DNA of 33,736 nt from a virus. Below the pieces are notes generated by a model. The model did no database searches and had not been told where the DNA came from. It saw nothing but the letters and a program-made list of their open reading frames with translations. Position numbers and translations under genes: made by a program. The stretch covers positions 1 through 33,736 of the IMG/VR virus record IMGVR_UViG_3300025889_000479. One strand, written 5' to 3'. This document shows positions 11,323 to 33,736 of the stretch, in pieces. The stretch's first letter is position 1; each line of letters opens with the position of its first letter.

Positions 11323-12822
11323 TTAGTAACGGCGATATTGTTGTTGGGTCTTTTCGTTTATGCGTTTCGCTTTGTTTGCGATGATCCAAGATGGTAAGTA
11401 TGCAGACTCCTTGAGCCGAACTGATTCCAAACACCAAGTTGCAAGTGCCAGTGCCATCGCACTATCACTGTGTCCTTCTTTCGTGGAGTCCAAGAATTTT
11501 ATTCTACCACGCTCGTCTGTTTGGATTGTGCGTAGTTCTGCAAGTGTAATGTTATCTAGCATACGGATCACACCGTTCTGTATCTGCTTCTTCAAATGCT
11601 CGAAGATGATGGGTTTTGATTTCATTGTAGTAATAAAGTCTTTTCCATCTGCGTCCTTGTATAGCCTGTGACAACCTTGGTGAACTAGTTCTGAAATTGT
11701 TGCAAGACCGTAGTTGTTTGCTTCCACCAGAATAAGTGCCGAGTTGTATTGTTCCGAGAATTCGTATATATAGTCTGCCAACTGCACAGGACTCACTTCA
11801 TTGGATCGCCACACTAGTACAGGTTGCATTGTCTTCTTACTCATTACAATAATAACAGAATAGTCCTTGCCAACACCACCACCAACATCCACTCCGATTG
11901 CATAGGTATCATCCCTAACTACTTGCTGAAAAGTTATGAATTCACGGTCGCATATATGCACATCAACATTCTGCACATCTTGGTAGGAGAAGTAGGTATT
12001 GCCTGCCACACGGTATGCTTCCTCTTGCGTAGCAGGAAATTCACGGAGGAATTGGGTGTTTCCGAGTTGCGATACTTTCATTCTTCGCCACTGCAATTGA
12101 TTGCAAGTGACGCCATAGTTCTCTACTAGAGAATTCTCATAGTCGTCCAACTCTTCTGCTTCTGTTTCTTCTGTATACTCCGAATGCGAGAACCAAGGAA
12201 AGAATAAATATTTCCATTTTGTTTCCTTTGTTTCCCACTTCCTGATCTCTTGGTGCAGACAATCGTTGTAGTAGTTTGCCGTACTCTCTAGGACGATCTG
12301 CCCCTTGCATGCACTGAATGCACTTGCCTTGAGTTCGTCAGGGTTCTCGGCAAATGCGTACTCGCTTATCAGTACCTTGCTTGCAGTAAACGAGCGAATG
12401 CCACCCATCTGTGTAGTAGCAACTGCAAGGATTCTGCCACCGTTCTTGAATGACAATTCTGTTGAGTTATCTACTTCAATATCCCTTTGCAAGATCTTGG
12501 GCAAACCATTATAGAATGCCTTTGCCATCTTGAGGATATGCTTACTACTGGATAACTTATAGGAAAAGATTGCATAGGTTACAGGCTCTTCTGACAGGTA
12601 CGCGAGTGCAAATAGGTATGCAATGTTTATGGTTGTCGATCCTATCTGTCTGCATTTAAGTATCAAAAGGTCATCGCCTGTTTCTAGTGCGTCTAGTATC
12701 CGTTCCTGTTCTTCGTTCAAGGACAGTGTTTGCAATTGCCCATCTTTGTTTACAATAGATAGGCGTTCAATGAACTCTCTAATAGAGAGTTGCTTCAGCA
12801 TTTGCAAGTGTTCCTTTTTCAT
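11323..12822 (-). CDS. terminase large subunit (TerL)
   Basis: This is a 499-residue DNA-packaging motor. The ATPase part carries a deviant P-loop, LKCRQIGSTT, at residues 55-64, of the K-x-R-Q-x-G type found in many phage terminases. A Walker-B-like KVLISEYAF lies near residues 150-158. The RNase H-like nuclease part has the acidic cluster in YAIGVDVGGGVGKDYSVI (residues ~300-318), a second acid in LILVEANNYGL, and the final acid in GHSDSAMALALATW. The ATG overlaps the small-subunit stop in a TAATG. Length is typical. Without integrase or cos evidence the packaging mode is open. The circular overlap of the contig would fit headful packaging. Confidence 0.95.
   Translation of the reverse strand: MKKEHLQMLKQLSIREFIERLSIVNKDGQLQTLSLNEEQERILDALETGDDLLILKCRQIGSTTINIAYLFALAYLSEEPVTYAIFSYKLSSSKHILKMAKAFYNGLPKILQRDIEVDNSTELSFKNGGRILAVATTQMGGIRSFTASKVLISEYAFAENPDELKASAFSACKGQIVLESTANYYNDCLHQEIRKWETKETKWKYLFFPWFSHSEYTEETEAEELDDYENSLVENYGVTCNQLQWRRMKVSQLGNTQFLREFPATQEEAYRVAGNTYFSYQDVQNVDVHICDREFITFQQVVRDDTYAIGVDVGGGVGKDYSVIIVMSKKTMQPVLVWRSNEVSPVQLADYIYEFSEQYNSALILVEANNYGLATISELVHQGCHRLYKDADGKDFITTMKSKPIIFEHLKKQIQNGVIRMLDNITLAELRTIQTDERGRIKFLDSTKEGHSDSAMALALATWCLESVRLKESAYLPSWIIANKAKRINEKTQQQYRRY
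12119..12133. promoter_or_regulatory. dispersed dyad site, exact (intragenic)
   Basis: TTCTCTACTAGAGAA is identical to the copy at 1570-1584 and lies in the terminase gene, read as N-S-L-V-E-N. Confidence 0.55.
12773..12791. promoter_or_regulatory. dispersed dyad site, longest perfect palindrome (intragenic)
   Basis: AACTCTCTAATAGAGAGTT is a perfect 19-bp odd palindrome near the start of the terminase gene. The gene reads it in the alternative frame (L-S-I-R-E-F), not the S-L-x-E-N frame. Confidence 0.55.
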
Positions 12823-13163: not shown

Positions 13164-13523
13164 CTACTTTGTAAAATGATTCTTCATTTTCGCCATCGCT
13201 CTCTTGTATAGATACCTAATATTCTGCCGTGTACACCCATAGTGTCTGCCACAAAACGCATAGGTCTTGCCATCATACATAATCCACTGCACCAACTGCT
13301 TCTCTTGTGGTGTCAGGACTGACAATAGTTCTTCTGCAATTTCGTTATAGTCAGTATTATCTTCTTCTTTTTCTTGTGGTTCAGGCTCGAATGCTTGTGT
13401 ATTTACATCGTAAATATATTCTCTATCTCCGACATATAGGTATCTGTAGTGGTTATCCACTATCGGTGGGTGTTCTTTATCTAGATCTTCTAGGATCTTC
13501 TGCCAATCGATCATCATATTCAT
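13164..13523 (-). CDS. sigma-70 region-4-like regulator (putative late activator)
   Basis: This is a 119-residue protein. Residues ~67-117 look like a sigma region 4 helix-turn-helix: LSVLTPQEKQLVQWIMYDGKT, then AFCGRHYGCTRQNIRYLYKRAMAKMK. The recognition helix is around TRQNIRYLYKRA. The N-terminal half is acidic, with an E/D/N-rich linker. No regions 2 or 3 are present. Such orphan region-4 proteins placed just upstream of small terminase genes (ArpU/RinA/LtrA-type position) control late transcription in other phages. The same job is a reasonable inference. The start follows GGAG with a 6-nt gap. It is the first gene of the leftward arm, downstream of a strong promoter with two overlapping inverted repeats. 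Confidence 0.75.
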   Translation of the reverse strand: MNMMIDWQKILEDLDKEHPPIVDNHYRYLYVGDREYIYDVNTQAFEPEPQEKEEDNTDYNEIAEELLSVLTPQEKQLVQWIMYDGKTYAFCGRHYGCTRQNIRYLYKRAMAKMKNHFTK

Positions 13524-13554
13524 TTTCTACTCCAACTTCTTATTTATTATGATA

Positions 13555-13590
13555 TACTATCGGTGATAGTAGATATGACCTTTGTCATAT
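13555..13590. promoter_or_regulatory. two adjacent inverted repeats (operator region)
   Basis: TACTATC-GGT-GATAGTA (13555-13571) and ATATGAC-CTTT-GTCATAT (13573-13590) stand side by side between two divergent genes. Each has perfect 7-bp arms. The second overlaps the -10 box and probable start site of the leftward promoter. The two arms differ in sequence, so two regulators or two forms of control are possible. Confidence 0.65.
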
Positions 13591-13617
13591 TATATTCAAT
13601 AAATAAATAGAATACAA
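13589..13617 (-). promoter_or_regulatory. sigma-70-type leftward promoter
   Basis: On the minus strand TTGTAT (13612-13617) is followed, after 17 bases, by a perfect TATAAT (13589-13594). It points at the sigma-4-like gene and the whole late arm. The sequence just past the -35, TTGTATTCT, also starts the rightward promoter at 14501. Confidence 0.65.
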
Positions 13618-13634
13618 ATAAAGGATTGAAATAT

Positions 13635-13913: not shown

Positions 13914-13926
13914 TCTCGTGCTTTTT
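13897..13926 (+). terminator. terminator at end of the Cys-rich gene
   Basis: AAAAAGCAC (13897-13905) pairs with GTGCTTTTT (13918-13926). GAG/CTC extend the stem inside. The stop codon lies in the loop region and T's follow the stem. Confidence 0.75.
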
Positions 13927-14076
13927 CCATCAATAAAACAATAACAATTTCTTTTCTAACAATTAACTTATTTAAATATAAAAGGAGTAGGGTCATTATC
14001 CAACGAGCCTATATAAATATACCACATTACAAATAGATATGCAAGAACTTTTTACTGTAGAACATAAATACTTGTC

Positions 14077-14098
14077 AGGGAGCGAGAGCAGAGTCCCT
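14077..14098. repeat. short hairpin in origin-like region
   Basis: AGGGA (14077-14081) pairs with TCCCT (14094-14098). The flanking TGTCAGG is repeated at the next hairpin (14191 onward), where GAGTC-A-GACTC forms an 11-bp dyad at 14197-14207. Confidence 0.45.
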
Positions 14099-14177
14099 AC
14101 TGTTATTTAGTGGGTAATAAATTTAAAGTGTAACAGGTGTAACAGTGTAACACCTGTTTCTATACTCATCTTATATC

Positions 14178-14245
14178 GGGTGCCAAAACCTGTCAGGAGT
14201 CAGACTCTGATCCCTTTCTATATACCCAACTCTATTTTGGCACCC
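14178..14245. repeat. long inverted repeat in origin-like region
   Basis: GGGTGCCAAAA (14178-14188) and TTTTGGCACCC (14235-14245) are perfect 11-bp arms separated by 46 bases. The smaller dyad at 14197-14207 lies between them. This could fold as a branched structure in single-stranded DNA or RNA. It does not resemble a terminator because no T-run follows. Confidence 0.65.
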
Positions 14246-14500
14246 AATTTAGAAACTATTAAAAAATACCTGTTACACTGTTACAACAATAAAATATATT
14301 AGTATAGTGTAGTGTAGAGTATAGAGAGATAGGGAATCGCAGAGCAACTAAAAGTTGTAACAGGTAGTGTAACAGGTAGTGTAAGTCCTGTTACATTTTG
14401 TGCAAATTTGGATTATGGTATGCAAAGTTGTAACAGGTCGTGTTACACCATCCCATTACCAACTATTTTATCTTTTTTTCATAAAAGATTTACGATTTAC

Positions 14501-14528
14501 TTGTATTCTGGAAAATATGTAGTATAAT
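14501..14528 (+). promoter_or_regulatory. sigma-70-type rightward promoter
   Basis: TTGTAT (14501-14506), a 16-base spacer and a perfect TATAAT (14523-14528) point at the RHH and primase genes. It lies about 140 bp before the first start codon, leaving a structured leader with two hairpins. Confidence 0.6.
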
Positions 14529-14582
14529 AATCTTATGACAGTGTTACTGTTTAACCAGATCTTTGAAATCGCTAGAAGAGCA

Positions 14583-14637
14583 TTGGGGATTCGCCCCCAA
14601 ATTTAATTATCACTCGGTGGTAATACAAATTGCCACC
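14583..14637 (+). promoter_or_regulatory. two hairpins in the leader of the replication operon
   Basis: TTGGGG (14583-14588) pairs with CCCCAA (14595-14600) and is followed by ATTT. GGTGGTAAT (14616-14624) pairs with ATTGCCACC (14629-14637) around ACAA, with one T-G wobble. Both lie between the rightward promoter and the RHH gene. They could be attenuator or stability elements. Neither has a strong T-run. Confidence 0.45.
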
Positions 14638-14641
14638 ATTA

Positions 14642-14658
14642 ACTTTTTAATATATAAT
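14642..14658 (+). promoter_or_regulatory. dyad-family site upstream of the RHH gene
   Basis: ACTTTTTAATATATAAT matches the element before the adaptor gene (ACTTTTTAATATATAGT on its coding strand) at 16 of 17 positions. It ends 10 nt before the RHH start codon. It also contains a TATAAT, so a second, very short-leader promoter is an alternative reading. Confidence 0.45.
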
Positions 14659-14668
14659 GGAGAACGCT

Positions 14669-14860
14669 ATGGAAAAGAAAATAAACTATCCACTATCCAT
14701 TGATCCCAAAACTTATGCCTTGCTAAAGCATGTAGCCAAGTTGAAAGATCAATCCATAAAAGATTGCTTGGAAACTGCAATCGCACTTTTACTAAAAGAC
14801 AATTGGACATTGATTCACAATGCCAATAACAATGATGATGACAATAACAATAAACAATAA
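14669..14860 (+). CDS. ribbon-helix-helix DNA-binding protein (Arc/CopG-like)
   Basis: This is a 63-residue protein. KKINYPLSIDPKTYALLKHVAKLKDQSIKDCLETAIALLLKD reads as one beta strand and two helices, the ribbon-helix-helix fold that binds DNA as dimers through the paired strand. A disordered Asn/Asp tail follows. The ATG at 14669 is chosen because GGAG (14659-14662) lies 6 nt before it; an ATG four codons upstream has no site. It lies between the iteron region and the primase gene. It may regulate its own operon, bind the iterons, or bind the genome-wide dyads; the sequence alone cannot choose. Confidence 0.75.
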   Translation: MEKKINYPLSIDPKTYALLKHVAKLKDQSIKDCLETAIALLLKDNWTLIHNANNNDDDNNNKQ

Positions 14861-14923: not shown

Positions 14924-17437
14924 ATGTCTAGTAAATACATTATATCAGATAAATTCAAGTCCAGCAACACCATTCTTGCTAAAGATTGGACTTTTTCAAT
15001 CTCTTCTCACCAAGCACCAAAGGGCGAAAAGTGGGGAAAAACCAACCAACTAGAGTACGGTGTACAACATGAAATTGTTGCCACTGATCTAATCGCTAAT
15101 CCAACAATAGTAACCAACATGGATATGAAAACAACCAAGTCAGGAAAACAATATGAGTTGGGCAAGTTCGATGTTCCTATATTCTGTGCAGTAAAATGGG
15201 CAGACAAAACAGGTTCTCGATCCATAACCAAAGTAGAGTCCGTATCTGCAATGGTGTTTGACTTTGACGGTCTTACTGACGACCAAACTGCTGAAACACT
15301 TGTAGCATTCGAGGGTCTGTGTCATATCGCTTACACAAGTTACTCCAACAAAGCACCATACAAGAATGATCTGCATGCATTCCGTGTTATCGTTGCATTG
15401 GATCGTCCTGTGTTACCTGAAGAATATGCTGACCAATACAAGCGTGGCATGTGGTTCGCACTAGAGAGTATCTTCCCACACCTTGACCAAGCAACCAAAG
15501 ACCCTTGTCGCTTTTGGTTTATGCCTAGTTACAGAGTGGATAGAGAGTCCGACTACTTTGCTTACGCAGAAGATGGTGCAATGCTATTGGTGGATCAATT
15601 ATTGGAACAGAGTGACCAACAAAGAACAACTCCTACCGAACCTAGTAACACTACCGAGCAGACACCTAACGGTGAACAGGTACCTAACGGTGAACCACCA
15701 CAGGAAGAAGCACCACAAGCAGACGATGGTAGATATATACAAACCGTTGTTCGTGATGATCATCCTGTAACTTGCCACGACTTGCAAGTCCGTCCTTTCT
15801 CTTGGGTCATAACAAATTGGGATTCTCTTCCAAAGCAAACCAACGGTAGATACAATTGTTGTCGTCCAAACAGTACAACCATTGGTTCTGCATTCGTATC
15901 TAGAACAGCACACCCAAGACACCTAGTTGCTAGGTATCGCTTGACTAGTGTACCAAATCGCACTCACCACGATTGTGATCGTACTGATCATGGGATTGCA
16001 TTACAATATGAAAACCGTGGTGGAACATTCCGTCCTGTCATAGATGTTCCCAACACTATCAAGATGATTGCCGCTATGAATCCCAATCTATACCTTGACG
16101 CAAGAACTGATTATAGTTACTACGAGGGGAAATTGATTATTGATTCTAAATACACTGTTATACAAGGTGTTCTACAAGACCAATATCGTATGCAATTTAA
16201 TAGATCAATTGTGCAGACTGCTACTGAAAACTACTGCGAAATGAATAGTTTTGATTCCTTGAAGACTTACTTGGAAAACTTACAGTGGGATGGTGTACAG
16301 AGAGCAGACGAACTTTTCATCAAATACCTAAAGGCTAACGATACAAATATACACCGTGTGTATGCACGAAAGTGGTTGATCTCTTGTGTTGCCAGAGCAT
16401 TGTCGTGGGGTTGCAAAGTAGATACAATGGTTATCTTGAAAGGTCTACAAGGTCTTCGTAAATCAGGATTCTTCAAAGCATTGGCAGGAACTTGCTCAAG
16501 GACAGGTAACTCATACTTTGCTGATGAACCCACCGAAACATCAGGAACCGATGGACTTTCAAAATTGCGTCTTGCATGGATTCATGAATGGGCAGAACTT
16601 TCAGGGATGAGCAAGAAAGAGAGTGGCGAGGTAAAGCAATTCCTTTCCAAGACAACAGATCGCTATAGACGAAAATATGATCGCAAAGAAATGATAAAAG
16701 AAAGACACTGTGTTCTTGTTGGTACAGTGAATAACGATCAAATCTTCCAAGATGATACAGGTAGCAGACGGTTTTGGGCAGTAGAGTGCAACGGTGAAGA
16801 ACACAAGGAAGCATACGATGAGAAAGATCTAGTTGCTATTCGTGATCAAATTTGGGCAGAAGCAGTTCACTACTACAAGCAAGGCGAGCAATGGTGGTTG
16901 ACTTATGAAGAACAAGTGCAATCAGCAGAAACCAATAGCAAGTTTGATTCTGTATCCATACACGAAGAACTGATTGAAACATGGCTACTTGAGAATCAAG
17001 GTCGCACATTTTCTTTCGAGGATTTGATGGATGAGGTTTATATGGAAGCATATACACTGTCAGATGGTACTGTTGCCAAACGAAATAAAGCGATCAAACC
17101 ACCCAATAACAATAAATGGCACAAGACTATCTTGGTTAGTCTAGGTTGCTTGCAATTGAACGATGGTAAATCTGCTCGTCACAATGGTAAGATAGGCAGA
17201 TGGTGGGTAGCACCGACAGTAGATGTTGCTGAAATTGTATCTGTATCAAACGAGAACTATGAATTGGAATTCAATGATGACAATACTGTAAAACGAGTAC
17301 GCAAGTTTGGACAAGAATGGATACCGTTTGAATCCATGTCAGAACAAGTACAAGCAGATTGGATGAAAAGATATCCAAAGCGTGACACAAAAATACGCAA
17401 CTTTCCTGACAAGCAAGAGCGTATGTTTCGACAATAA
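14924..17437 (+). CDS. primase / VirE-type helicase (replication initiator)
   Basis: This is an 837-residue two-part replication protein. The N-terminal ~235 residues look like an archaeo-eukaryotic primase. AMVFDFDGL (~107-115) supplies the D-x-D motif, followed by CHIAYTSYS, DLHAFRVIVALDRPV and DPCRFWFMPS. A Pro/Gln/Glu-rich linker with a tandem PNGE repeat follows (~240-270). The C-terminal half matches virulence-associated E helicases. It contains LQWDGVQRADEL, the P-loop region KGLQGLRKSGFFKALAG (~504-520), Walker-B-like WIHEWAEL (~548), and DDTGSRRFWAVEC with the arginine pair. The P-loop has Arg where Gly is usual before Lys-Ser. It would prime and unwind DNA at the adjacent origin; polymerase must come from the host. 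AGGAG lies 9 nt before the ATG. Confidence 0.88.
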   Translation: MSSKYIISDKFKSSNTILAKDWTFSISSHQAPKGEKWGKTNQLEYGVQHEIVATDLIANPTIVTNMDMKTTKSGKQYELGKFDVPIFCAVKWADKTGSRSITKVESVSAMVFDFDGLTDDQTAETLVAFEGLCHIAYTSYSNKAPYKNDLHAFRVIVALDRPVLPEEYADQYKRGMWFALESIFPHLDQATKDPCRFWFMPSYRVDRESDYFAYAEDGAMLLVDQLLEQSDQQRTTPTEPSNTTEQTPNGEQVPNGEPPQEEAPQADDGRYIQTVVRDDHPVTCHDLQVRPFSWVITNWDSLPKQTNGRYNCCRPNSTTIGSAFVSRTAHPRHLVARYRLTSVPNRTHHDCDRTDHGIALQYENRGGTFRPVIDVPNTIKMIAAMNPNLYLDARTDYSYYEGKLIIDSKYTVIQGVLQDQYRMQFNRSIVQTATENYCEMNSFDSLKTYLENLQWDGVQRADELFIKYLKANDTNIHRVYARKWLISCVARALSWGCKVDTMVILKGLQGLRKSGFFKALAGTCSRTGNSYFADEPTETSGTDGLSKLRLAWIHEWAELSGMSKKESGEVKQFLSKTTDRYRRKYDRKEMIKERHCVLVGTVNNDQIFQDDTGSRRFWAVECNGEEHKEAYDEKDLVAIRDQIWAEAVHYYKQGEQWWLTYEEQVQSAETNSKFDSVSIHEELIETWLLENQGRTFSFEDLMDEVYMEAYTLSDGTVAKRNKAIKPPNNNKWHKTILVSLGCLQLNDGKSARHNGKIGRWWVAPTVDVAEIVSVSNENYELEFNDDNTVKRVRKFGQEWIPFESMSEQVQADWMKRYPKRDTKIRNFPDKQERMFRQ

Positions 17438-29417: not shown

Positions 29418-31613
29418 CTATTGAGATATTGCTTCTTCTATAGTCGTACTTTGTAAAGGAGATTGTTCAGGAGTGGATTCAGGAGCAGGTTCTTGCACAG
29501 GTTCTTGCACAGATTCTGTTCGATGGGGTACATCTTTGTTCATAAAGTGCTTCTGTACTAGATAGTTGATAGCCTGTTCCCTCTGCTTATCTGTGAGATT
29601 TGGATATACAGAAATTGAGTTAATGGCAGCCTGATATAGTTTCTCTTTCTCTGGTTTACTTGCATTTCTTCTTGGGTTGTACACAGTATCCACAACCTTT
29701 CTAGGGTACTTGTCGGTCTCTTTAAGGACTTGTTTTCTTTGTTCTTTGGTTCGCTCACCTACTTTCACTTCTTGTTGTGTTGCCAATGCTTGTGCCGTCT
29801 TAAAATCGTCAGCAGAAGTATCTAATACCTCTTGAGCAATATCTTGTACAATTTTACTTTTCAAGTGCTTATTGTATTGTTCAAGCATTCTCTCATCCAT
29901 ACCTTGTTTGCGAAGATACTGTTTTGCTTCTGTCAAATATATCGCTTTTTTATGTCTTGTATTGTTTTTGCTTGGTATGGTATTGTAAACATAAGCAGCA
30001 AGTGCCAATGGGTTGTCGCTATGTAATGTGTATCCAGTTTGATATGGTGCAGTGCGTATTGATGATCTACCACCTTGTAGGATATCCAATTCCATTTCGT
30101 TACGTGTGGGCAGATCTCTCTCTTTTGTCAAAGTTTGATACTCTGCAGCAACGGCATCAAATCGCTTTGCTATAGGTGAATTGGCGTCTTCTAGTCTAGC
30201 AGATTCTGCTTCTGCATAAGATTGTCGCCATTCTCTTTTCTCTTGTTTTGTGGAATTGTCTATATATCTGTATTCAGATATTCTTCCAATTCTTGGATCG
30301 AATATAGGAACAATTGTATACTTTCCATCATTTGTTACCACACTCTTTCTGTCTGTTTGACCCCTATTTACATTATTTTCTGAACTATCTGTTACAGTGT
30401 TACTAGATATAGTAGGTTCTTGTGTAGGTGCGATAGACTCGGCACTAGCACCTGTAACAGGTTCTGTAACAAGTTGTGCTGCTTGTTGTTGTGTAGGTGG
30501 TACAGTTTGACCCAATGCTTCTAGCAAAGCATTTCTTCTGTGTTGCATTTGGTCTGCAGGAGTTGCATTCTTTGGCATTGACAATTCTGCTTTCTGTTTT
30601 GCACCTTGCAATGTCGATAATCCAAGTATTTGTGCTTCCAATGCTCTGTCAGTTCTGTTAGGTTGTCCAAGAATTTCCCTTGCAGTTTCTCCTGATCTCT
30701 CTAGTAGAGAACGAGTATCTCTTGTTGGAGTTTGCAAACCTTGTAATTCTTTTTCTATCTTTGCAATCTGTTCATCTATACTTTGTTGTCTTGTAGTTAT
30801 ATCTTGTGGGGTAACGGCAGGTTGATAACCTGTTTGTCTACTATAGGTAGTAGTAGGTACGAACTCTCTTTCTGCTTGGGTTGTAGGTGCAGCAGGGGTA
30901 CGAAGTTGTGCAATTTCTGCATTCTTTGCTTGTAGTTGTTCGTCTTTTGCTTTAGCGACTTGCTTGTATTGTTCTGCCTGAAGAGTAGCAGTTCTTATAT
31001 CTTGAGCAGCAGCCTTTGCATTAGCATTATTGGTTACTATATTCAAAGTAACACTAGCAGGATCACCACCCCTTGCCACTGTATCAGCAACTTCTTGTTC
31101 GTATTGTGCAATTTCTGTCTGATAGTTCTTCAAGTAATTAGTAGTCTTTGCCGTGTTTGCTCGTGATCTTGCTTCCAATTCATCAGATAATGCTTGATCT
31201 CTTTCGTTTTCCAAACCTGTAGCATAGCGTTCTTGTTGCAGAATTTGTTGCTCTCCACCAGTAGTAGCAGTACTTGCTCTAGTTGTTGTAGATACACGAA
31301 CCTGTGCCGCCTTGTTCGCTCTTGCCTGTTCTTTGACTAACTCACTAGCAGTTTTCTCTTTTAATTCCAATAGTTTAGTTCTTGCGTCAACCAAGTCTTT
31401 CCTGTATTGCGTCATTGCTTTCATCTGTGCTTCGTATGACGCACCCTCTTGTTGCATTTTCAACATGCTATCTTTTACTGCTTGCTCGTATATTCTATAC
31501 TTTTGTTGTGACACGGCATTTGCCCAAGATTGCCCTGAAGATTGCAATCTAGGATCTCTACCACTACCAGTGATAACATATACGGTTTGACCACTTATTT
31601 GTTGAATAGCCAT
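29418..31613 (-). CDS. internal virion protein (T7 gp15-like position)
   Basis: This is a 731-residue protein behind AGGAG. It is rich in Gln, Ala, Thr, Lys and Glu, with long helical/coiled-coil stretches at ~35-100, ~125-180 and ~210-300. A Ser/Thr/Pro-rich disordered centre follows (~370-430). A more ordered part (~430-690) includes a basic segment (KYPRKVVDTVYNPRRNASKPEKEK), and the tail is Glu/Pro repeat-rich. No enzyme motif is visible. Size and place between the 221-aa and 2422-aa genes match T7 gp15 (747 aa). It probably sits in the capsid core and is ejected with DNA. Confidence 0.6.
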   Translation of the reverse strand: MAIQQISGQTVYVITGSGRDPRLQSSGQSWANAVSQQKYRIYEQAVKDSMLKMQQEGASYEAQMKAMTQYRKDLVDARTKLLELKEKTASELVKEQARANKAAQVRVSTTTRASTATTGGEQQILQQERYATGLENERDQALSDELEARSRANTAKTTNYLKNYQTEIAQYEQEVADTVARGGDPASVTLNIVTNNANAKAAAQDIRTATLQAEQYKQVAKAKDEQLQAKNAEIAQLRTPAAPTTQAEREFVPTTTYSRQTGYQPAVTPQDITTRQQSIDEQIAKIEKELQGLQTPTRDTRSLLERSGETAREILGQPNRTDRALEAQILGLSTLQGAKQKAELSMPKNATPADQMQHRRNALLEALGQTVPPTQQQAAQLVTEPVTGASAESIAPTQEPTISSNTVTDSSENNVNRGQTDRKSVVTNDGKYTIVPIFDPRIGRISEYRYIDNSTKQEKREWRQSYAEAESARLEDANSPIAKRFDAVAAEYQTLTKERDLPTRNEMELDILQGGRSSIRTAPYQTGYTLHSDNPLALAAYVYNTIPSKNNTRHKKAIYLTEAKQYLRKQGMDERMLEQYNKHLKSKIVQDIAQEVLDTSADDFKTAQALATQQEVKVGERTKEQRKQVLKETDKYPRKVVDTVYNPRRNASKPEKEKLYQAAINSISVYPNLTDKQREQAINYLVQKHFMNKDVPHRTESVQEPVQEPAPESTPEQSPLQSTTIEEAISQ
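30697..30712. promoter_or_regulatory. dispersed dyad site, exact core (intragenic)
   Basis: CTCTCTAGTAGAGAAC in the 731-residue protein gene is read as R-S-L-L-E-R. Confidence 0.55.
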
Positions 31614-33017: not shown

Positions 33018-33634
33018 TATCTCCTCCCTATTACTACATTCAGGTTCAATCTATCTACTGTAATTTCATTGGGTTCTGCACAAACCTTTGCTTGCAATTG
33101 TACCGAAGTAACTGTAGTTCCTGCAGGTATCATCCAACACTGTGCGCCTGCACAAGATCTCCACTGTATCGGCAGAGTGTTCAATGCAGGTTGTGCAGTT
33201 GGTACAGATCTAGCCACAATACTGTATACTCCAGGTGCAATATAATAATTTGTTCCCCCACTTGTTGCTACCAATACACGAAAAGCATAGTTTATATCGG
33301 CATTGGTTACACCACCACCATAGACTATCTCGCTAACAAGTGTGTCCCAACTAACACGCAAGACCTCGTTGTTTACGGCTAACTCTGTAAAAACAACAGA
33401 AGCAAGAGTAAACCAAGCGGTAGTATTTACTGTTTGTGGAACTTGTATTGAATTTCCATAAGTAGAATTTATCTTGGAAGCAACACTGCTATCAAAGTGT
33501 GATCGCAATGCCCAATCGTTTCCAGTATTGTATTCCTGTACATTCAAGGATCCTAGTTCTGTGTATGGCTGATTGAGTTGTGTAGCCGTTGGAACATCGC
33601 TAGGTTCGAAAGTTGTTTGATTTATCTTTCCCAT
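33017..33634 (-). CDS. beta-rich virion surface protein (complete, right allele)
   Basis: This is a 205-residue protein behind AAGGTGAT, with its stop overlapping the next ATG. The N-terminal ~45 residues are polar (TTFEPSDVPTATQLNQPYTELGSL). The rest is strand-rich, with AWFTLASVVFTELAVNNEVLRVSW, INYAFRVLVATSGGTNYYIAPGVYSIVAR and a final TVTSVQLQAKVCAEPNEI. A Cys pair in RSCAGAQCW is unusual. It differs from the left-end allele at about 11 residues. No family is recognised. Variation between alleles while both neighbours stay identical suggests an exposed surface or receptor-contacting role, by inference. Confidence 0.75.
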   Translation of the reverse strand: MGKINQTTFEPSDVPTATQLNQPYTELGSLNVQEYNTGNDWALRSHFDSSVASKINSTYGNSIQVPQTVNTTAWFTLASVVFTELAVNNEVLRVSWDTLVSEIVYGGGVTNADINYAFRVLVATSGGTNYYIAPGVYSIVARSVPTAQPALNTLPIQWRSCAGAQCWMIPAGTTVTSVQLQAKVCAEPNEITVDRLNLNVVIGRR

Positions 33635-33736
33635 ATATCACCTTATCTGAAAGTATTTCTCGCCATTATCTGCACACCAAAGATCTCTAGTGCAGTAGTA
33701 GGATCGCCAGTGTATATACCAATAGGTCTGTTATCT
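33115..33736. repeat. right copy of 622-bp terminal redundancy
   Basis: This is the partner of 1-622, offset 33,114 bp. It has the same gene arrangement and no indels, with about 97% identity. It probably marks closure of a circular or permuted genome assembled from two variants. Confidence 0.9.
33643..33736 (-). CDS. 3' end of the 242-aa beta-rich protein gene (second copy, partial)
   Basis: These last 94 bases repeat 529-622 exactly and encode the C-terminal end (TTALEIFGVQIMARNTFR). The 5' part lies beyond the window. If the genome is circular, this is the same gene as 529-1257. Confidence 0.85.
   Translation of the reverse strand, partial: DNRPIGIYTGDPTTALEIFGVQIMARNTFR

Follow-up and report, generated by a model that had tools for sequence, protein, structure and literature searches.

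The origins of PICIs contain an AT-rich region located between two sets of iterons, and their pri-rep-ori module has been put to the test of plasmid maintenance (PMC6092414). In SaPI, the C-terminal domain of Rep binds iterons situated directly downstream of the rep gene (PMC7581432). P4 (NC_001609) was used as a positive control in the present work: its annotated ori and crr repeats correspond to GGTGAACA, and crr lies beside the alpha gene. P4 resembles the phage described below in encoding a single primase-helicase fusion, in displaying 8-bp GGTGAACA repeats in both orientations in ori and crr, in the RACA core of its repeat unit and in that no DNA polymerase of its own is recognized. It differs in having two sites, crr on the 3' side of alpha and ori on the 5' side at a distance of about 2 kb, whereas the present phage displays one array, 5' of the gene. 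The DNA-binding domain of P4 alpha is characterized, in contrast to that of the protein studied here.

The window analyzed is the whole IMG/VR virus record IMGVR_UViG_3300025889_000479 (G000), with a length of 33,736 bp. Its segment 14129-14447 is very probably the replication origin of the phage, of the P4-alpha, SaPI-Rep and PICI pri-rep-ori kind, with the primase-helicase (or a complex of it) as its proposed initiator. A probable origin had been proposed at this place by a sequence-only reading, and the proposal is supported by comparative evidence from the close relative L008, from the association with VapE genes, from the P4 control and from the published origins. The locus shares with the Gram-negative PICI modules an AT-rich region (14286-14355) flanked by two iteron sets (PMC6092414), and with the SaPI Rep/PriRep origins a VapE-type helicase (7pds) and short iterons beside the gene. 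The SaPI iterons are directly downstream of rep (PMC7581432), whereas those of the window are upstream of the proposed initiator gene and separated from it by an RHH-like gene, which is the unusual trait of this locus.

Genome context and layout of the array

The ends of the record (1-622 and 33115-33736) share a direct overlap of 622 bp in which 97% of the positions are identical, with mismatches mostly within 128-503. The genome therefore most likely measures about 33.1 kb, with terminal redundancy or circular permutation, and the record, classed as linear, is probably a complete genome assembled from two strains differing in the end gene. Unlike the PICIs, which are satellites, the window is apparently a complete tailed-phage genome. 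Scans of the window against Rfam and for tRNAs returned no match. The non-coding region extends over 13914-14656 (743 bp) and had been described from sequence as the only large one of the genome; it is the biggest gap among the likely genes when ORFs of at least 60 aa are considered. It had also been described as adjoining the primase-helicase gene: the array is near this gene, but its end is 474 bp from the start of the gene, with an RHH-like ORF of 63-67 aa in between. The array as a whole lies 487-795 bp 5' of the gene and none is present 3'. The features of the locus are collected in Table 1.

Table 1. Coordinates of the iteron array and of neighboring features in the window
Feature	Position	Strand	Remarks
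Terminase	11323-12822		Terminase and its upstream small gene at most 1.3 kb from the array
Cys-rich, Zn-ribbon-like protein, 95 aa	13626-13913	+	Left of the non-coding region; 93% nucleotide identity in L008
Iteron set A, left	14129-14154	+	TGTAACAGG (14129), TGTAACAGT (14138), TGTAACACC (14146)
Imperfect inverted repeat, 51 nt, 73%	14138-14285		Frames set A; inner arms GGGTGCCAAAA/TTTTGGCACCC, 46 nt apart
Iteron set A, right	14269-14285	-	TGTAACAGG (14269-14277), TGTAACAGT (14277-14285)
AT-rich spacer between sets A and B	14286-14355		70 bp, 69% AT
Iteron set B, left	14356-14395		TGTAACAGG + (14356), + (14368), - (14387)
Iteron set B, right	14429-14447		TGTAACAGG + (14429), TGTAACACG - (14439)
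AT-rich flank	14453-14530		78% AT
Palindrome TGGTGGTAATACAAATTGCCACCA over promoter-like site TTGCCA-17-TATAAT	14614-14658	+	Just 5' of the RHH gene; kept in L008
Small RHH/CopG-like protein	14669-14860	+	Core 52% identical to that of its L008 homologue
AEP-like primase/VapE (PF05272) helicase fusion, 837 aa	14924-17437	+	Proposed initiator

The six exact copies of TGTAACAGG reported in both orientations were recovered with their coordinates and strands. The TGTAACA heptamer occurs ten times in both orientations within 14129-14447, and these ten sites are grouped into set A (14129-14285) and set B (14356-14447). The array thus consists of short identical repeats in two orientations near the gene of the proposed initiator, as in a pri-rep-ori module. 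Six copies per 320 bp is the largest 9-mer cluster of the window, every other 9-mer clustering less. Among 60 dinucleotide shuffles, 57 were devoid of any 9-mer reaching at least four copies per 320 bp and the remaining three reached four. When up to one mismatch is allowed, TGTAACAGG is found at 23 sites across the window, to be compared with 9.7 +/- 3.0 expected. The observation made from sequence is confirmed as real and the array is beyond chance. The further elements described with it are likewise present, namely the 12-bp tandem (14356/14368), the perfect dyad with 9-bp arms (AACAGGTGT/ACACCTGTT, 14132-14158), the long inverted repeat with 11-bp arms (14178-14188 and 14235-14245) and the AT-rich flank. 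The GC-skew check of the origin showed no inflection, a result which neither supports nor refutes it. The spacer separating the two sets is a candidate DNA-unwinding element, and the segment 14257-14306 ranks fifth among the least stable 50-bp stretches of the genome.

An extra exact copy of TGTAACAGG at 30453, within a late gene, is probably due to chance. Three TGTAACA-like sites are found around it (30388-30473), two of them spaced by 12 bp like those of the main array; they are probably coding or fortuitous as well, but a second cis site does exist in P4.

The region could be compared with L008, a 5-kb contig whose terminase protein is 99% identical and which is the sole close relative reaching the region. 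Identity between the two amounts to 97% in the intergenic segment 13524-13625, 86% in the left flank and 87% in the leader, whereas the iteron block is reshuffled and only 56% of it is alignable. This block of L008 nevertheless contains nine exact copies of TGTAACAGG, mostly at positions other than those of the window. The conservation of TGTAACAGG in a rearranged setting is the pattern expected of protein-binding sites under selection. The start of set B is identical in both sequences (GTGTAACAGGT after a common TGTAACAGGTA) and the AT-rich spacer ahead of it is similar. The ++- arrangement of TGTAACAGG seen in the left part of set B is found again in L008, as well as in phages that are not related.

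The palindrome TGGTGGTAATACAAATTGCCACCA is a candidate operator/promoter of the replication operon. The leader itself (14531-14656) contains the hairpins TTGGGGATTCGCCCCCAA, whose loop differs in L008, and GGTGGTAATACAAATTGCCACC; an operator or an RNA element is possible there. On the other side, the first leftward gene (region 13164-13625) is similar to sigma factors of phages (phrog_351, E 4e-10) and the 97% conserved gap before it contains the palindromes TACTATCGGTGATAGTA and ATATGACCTTTGTCATAT, so that this region is a possible late-gene switch.

The RHH-like gene more likely starts at the ATG at 14669, located behind GGAG, than at 14657. The protein has no Pfam match and was assigned to the RHH family by eye. 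The primase-helicase matches PF05272 (E 6e-71) and its helicase core matches PDB entry 7pds (E 3e-38), annotated as 'similar to D. nodosus vapE', which we take to be SaPI Rep. Its N-terminal stretch aligns with other VapE primase fusions. A primase joined to a VapE-type helicase is thus encoded near the array, as in the pri-rep-ori modules. The C-terminus (beyond residues ~705-764) has no detectable homology to other VapE C-terminal domains, and is unreliable in the AlphaFold model of the protein (mean pLDDT 52). A search for relatives using the primase protein alone returned none that is close. The gene is followed by that of a RusA-like resolvase. The VapE Walker A motif (16442-16465) reads GLQGLRKS, with R in place of the usual G before K; the same substitution is found in Synechococcus phage S-LBS1 (GDQGARKS).

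VapE genes and iteron arrays in other phages

VapE genes were collected from annotated phages, from P4 and from viral contigs, and the 102 genes obtained were reduced to 29 clusters at 60% identity. A gene was scored as having an array if some 8-mer occurred, without mismatch, four or more times in the 500 bp on its 3' side. Such arrays were found for 14 of the 29 non-redundant VapE/P4-alpha genes as compared with 37 of 1579 control windows (2.3%) taken from the same sequences. The corresponding Fisher p-value of ~9e-15 is approximate because the control windows overlap by half. Examples of these 3' arrays include Jacinda (CTGCAACA, 9 copies), a Pasteurella phage (GTGACAAA, 9), Staphylococcus phage 47 (ATGCAACA, 5), SMP (GATGTAAC, 7), CL31 (CGGGACAA, 9), S-LBS1 (CCTAACCT, 11) and P4 (GGTGAACA, 5). 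About half of the VapE genes, such as those of most Bacteroides phages, are devoid of an array by this definition. No array was found within 500 bp on the 5' side of any of the 29 genes; where surveyed genes have an array nearby, it is nearly always 3'. A TGTY/RACA core is present in 9 of the 14 top repeat units, a number reached in none of 5000 permutations, and a look-elsewhere search using random 8-mers yielded a best 4-mer in at most 7 units over 60 draws. The array of the window is not directly 3' of its proposed initiator gene; the directly 3' position, seen in SaPI, in P4 crr and in most VapE phages that have arrays, is a usual rather than an obligatory trait, the ori of P4 being about 2 kb away. 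Fetched by its VapE protein, the contig L128 (IMGVR_UViG_3300019857_000029) shows the highest core identity to that of the window (45%). It carries about ten TGTAACATT-like copies and resembles the window in the TGTAACA heptamer of this iteron, but its array is directly 3' of the VapE gene.

Taken together with the window, these results suggest that VapE primase-helicase genes mark origins. We tentatively propose, at a confidence somewhat short of probable, that VapE/DUF5906/P4-alpha initiators of phages and satellites from a wide range of hosts recognize related iterons with a TGTY/RACA core, that their origins may thus be predicted from sequence and that the window is one 5'-side case. No description of this association of VapE genes with arrays of common core was found in the literature searched, although its newness is unproven.

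A pattern search for the ++- arrangement of TGTAACAGG matched phages L031, L070 and L071-73, with 7-12 copies each. The reversed 9-mer, used as a control, matched a similar number of contigs and several of these matches are real arrays. That unrelated phages such as L031, L070 and L071-73 have the same 9-mer is therefore no evidence of a common binder. Among the records whose arrays were found by the window 9-mer or its reverse, a DUF5906 primase-helicase is encoded in five of the six tested, the sixth being a short fragment. Two-orientation arrays do track primase-helicases of the DUF5906 type. A search of viral contigs with a 19-mer iteron pattern was also discarded, as it yielded isolated chance matches and many repeats within coding sequence (Pro-Val-Thr tracts) instead of origins.

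Matches to TGTAACAGG also occur in Polyangium, Chitinophaga and Bacteroidales genomes. On a scaffold of a Chitinophaga MAG (L077:5053-7463), repeats of TGTAACAGG/TGTTACAGG directly follow the gene of a RepA-like ATPase, which ends in a C-terminal helix-turn-helix. Three Polyangium genomes (L074, L075 and L076) have a short TGTAACAGG cluster in common, with partly similar flanks.

Alternative functions of the array

RHH regulators bind short repeated sites. The array could be an operator at which the adjacent RHH protein, or another phage repressor, controls transcription of the early replication operon, instead of acting in replication. This is unlikely, although the array is upstream of the RHH-primase operon, is of the kind of short repeats known to be bound by RHH regulators, and has promoter-like sites nearby, which are no commoner than chance. 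The separate conserved palindrome covering the -35 of the promoter-like site is a more natural RHH operator. The presumed DNA-contacting strand also differs between the RHH proteins of the window and of L008 (INYPLSI and KIYPLQI, respectively) while the 9-mer is identical, and tblastn detected no RHH homologue in the loci of the other phages displaying a TGTAACAGG array. Finally, the arrays associated with VapE genes are mostly 3', a position ill suited to an operator of the same gene. A dual use of the array as operator and origin is possible.

Binding of the sites by a host protein would explain why an exact 9-mer is common to the window, L031/L071-73 and L070 as the target of one host factor, and pairwise BLASTP of the primases of the window, G001 and G002 did reveal no similarity. 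The control with the reversed 9-mer, several matches of which are real arrays in primase-helicase records, makes this highly improbable: sharing to roughly this extent would be produced by a large number of phages whose iterons are varied, and the repeat unit varies between VapE phages. The proximity of the terminase and of its upstream small gene could in turn suggest that the array serves in packaging, as a pac-like site, or in recognition by the terminase. Neither a VapE nor an RHH relative was detected in the terminase relatives other than L008, with 42-63% identity and at least 2 kb of sequence upstream of the terminase, and these are devoid of a TGTNACA array, at most two such sites being close together. 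The array therefore goes with the replication gene and not with packaging. Arrays of unrelated phages also accompany the primase-helicase, and a packaging function can hardly be credited.

Other repeat clusters are located upstream of the terminase in seven of these relatives in which VapE is undetected (L215, L223, L231, L233, L205, L229 and L237). Their units (CCGAAACA, GAAACAAT and TGCAACAT) again display a RACA-like core, and the DUF5906 domain was absent where tested.

Proposed initiation and implications

By analogy with the described systems, we infer the binding protein and its domain, the melting site and the start of replication at 14129-14447. The primase-helicase, or its complex, would bind the TGTAACAGG iterons in the form of two multimers, which would occupy set A and set B, respectively. 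The initiator would then melt the AT-rich DNA between or beside the iteron sets, and the primase-helicase may load itself as a ring helicase. Synthesis would be primed by the AEP-type primase domain. As no DNA polymerase was recognized among the phage proteins scanned, extension would be performed by a host polymerase, as for P4.

The phage is best regarded as a further case of a replicon type already described, its array being on the 5' side. A concrete origin and its initiator can thereby be proposed for an uncultivated phage family. Since about half of the VapE genes have an array at most 500 bp downstream, often with a common core, origins may become predictable in numerous phages and satellites in which replication is unstudied.
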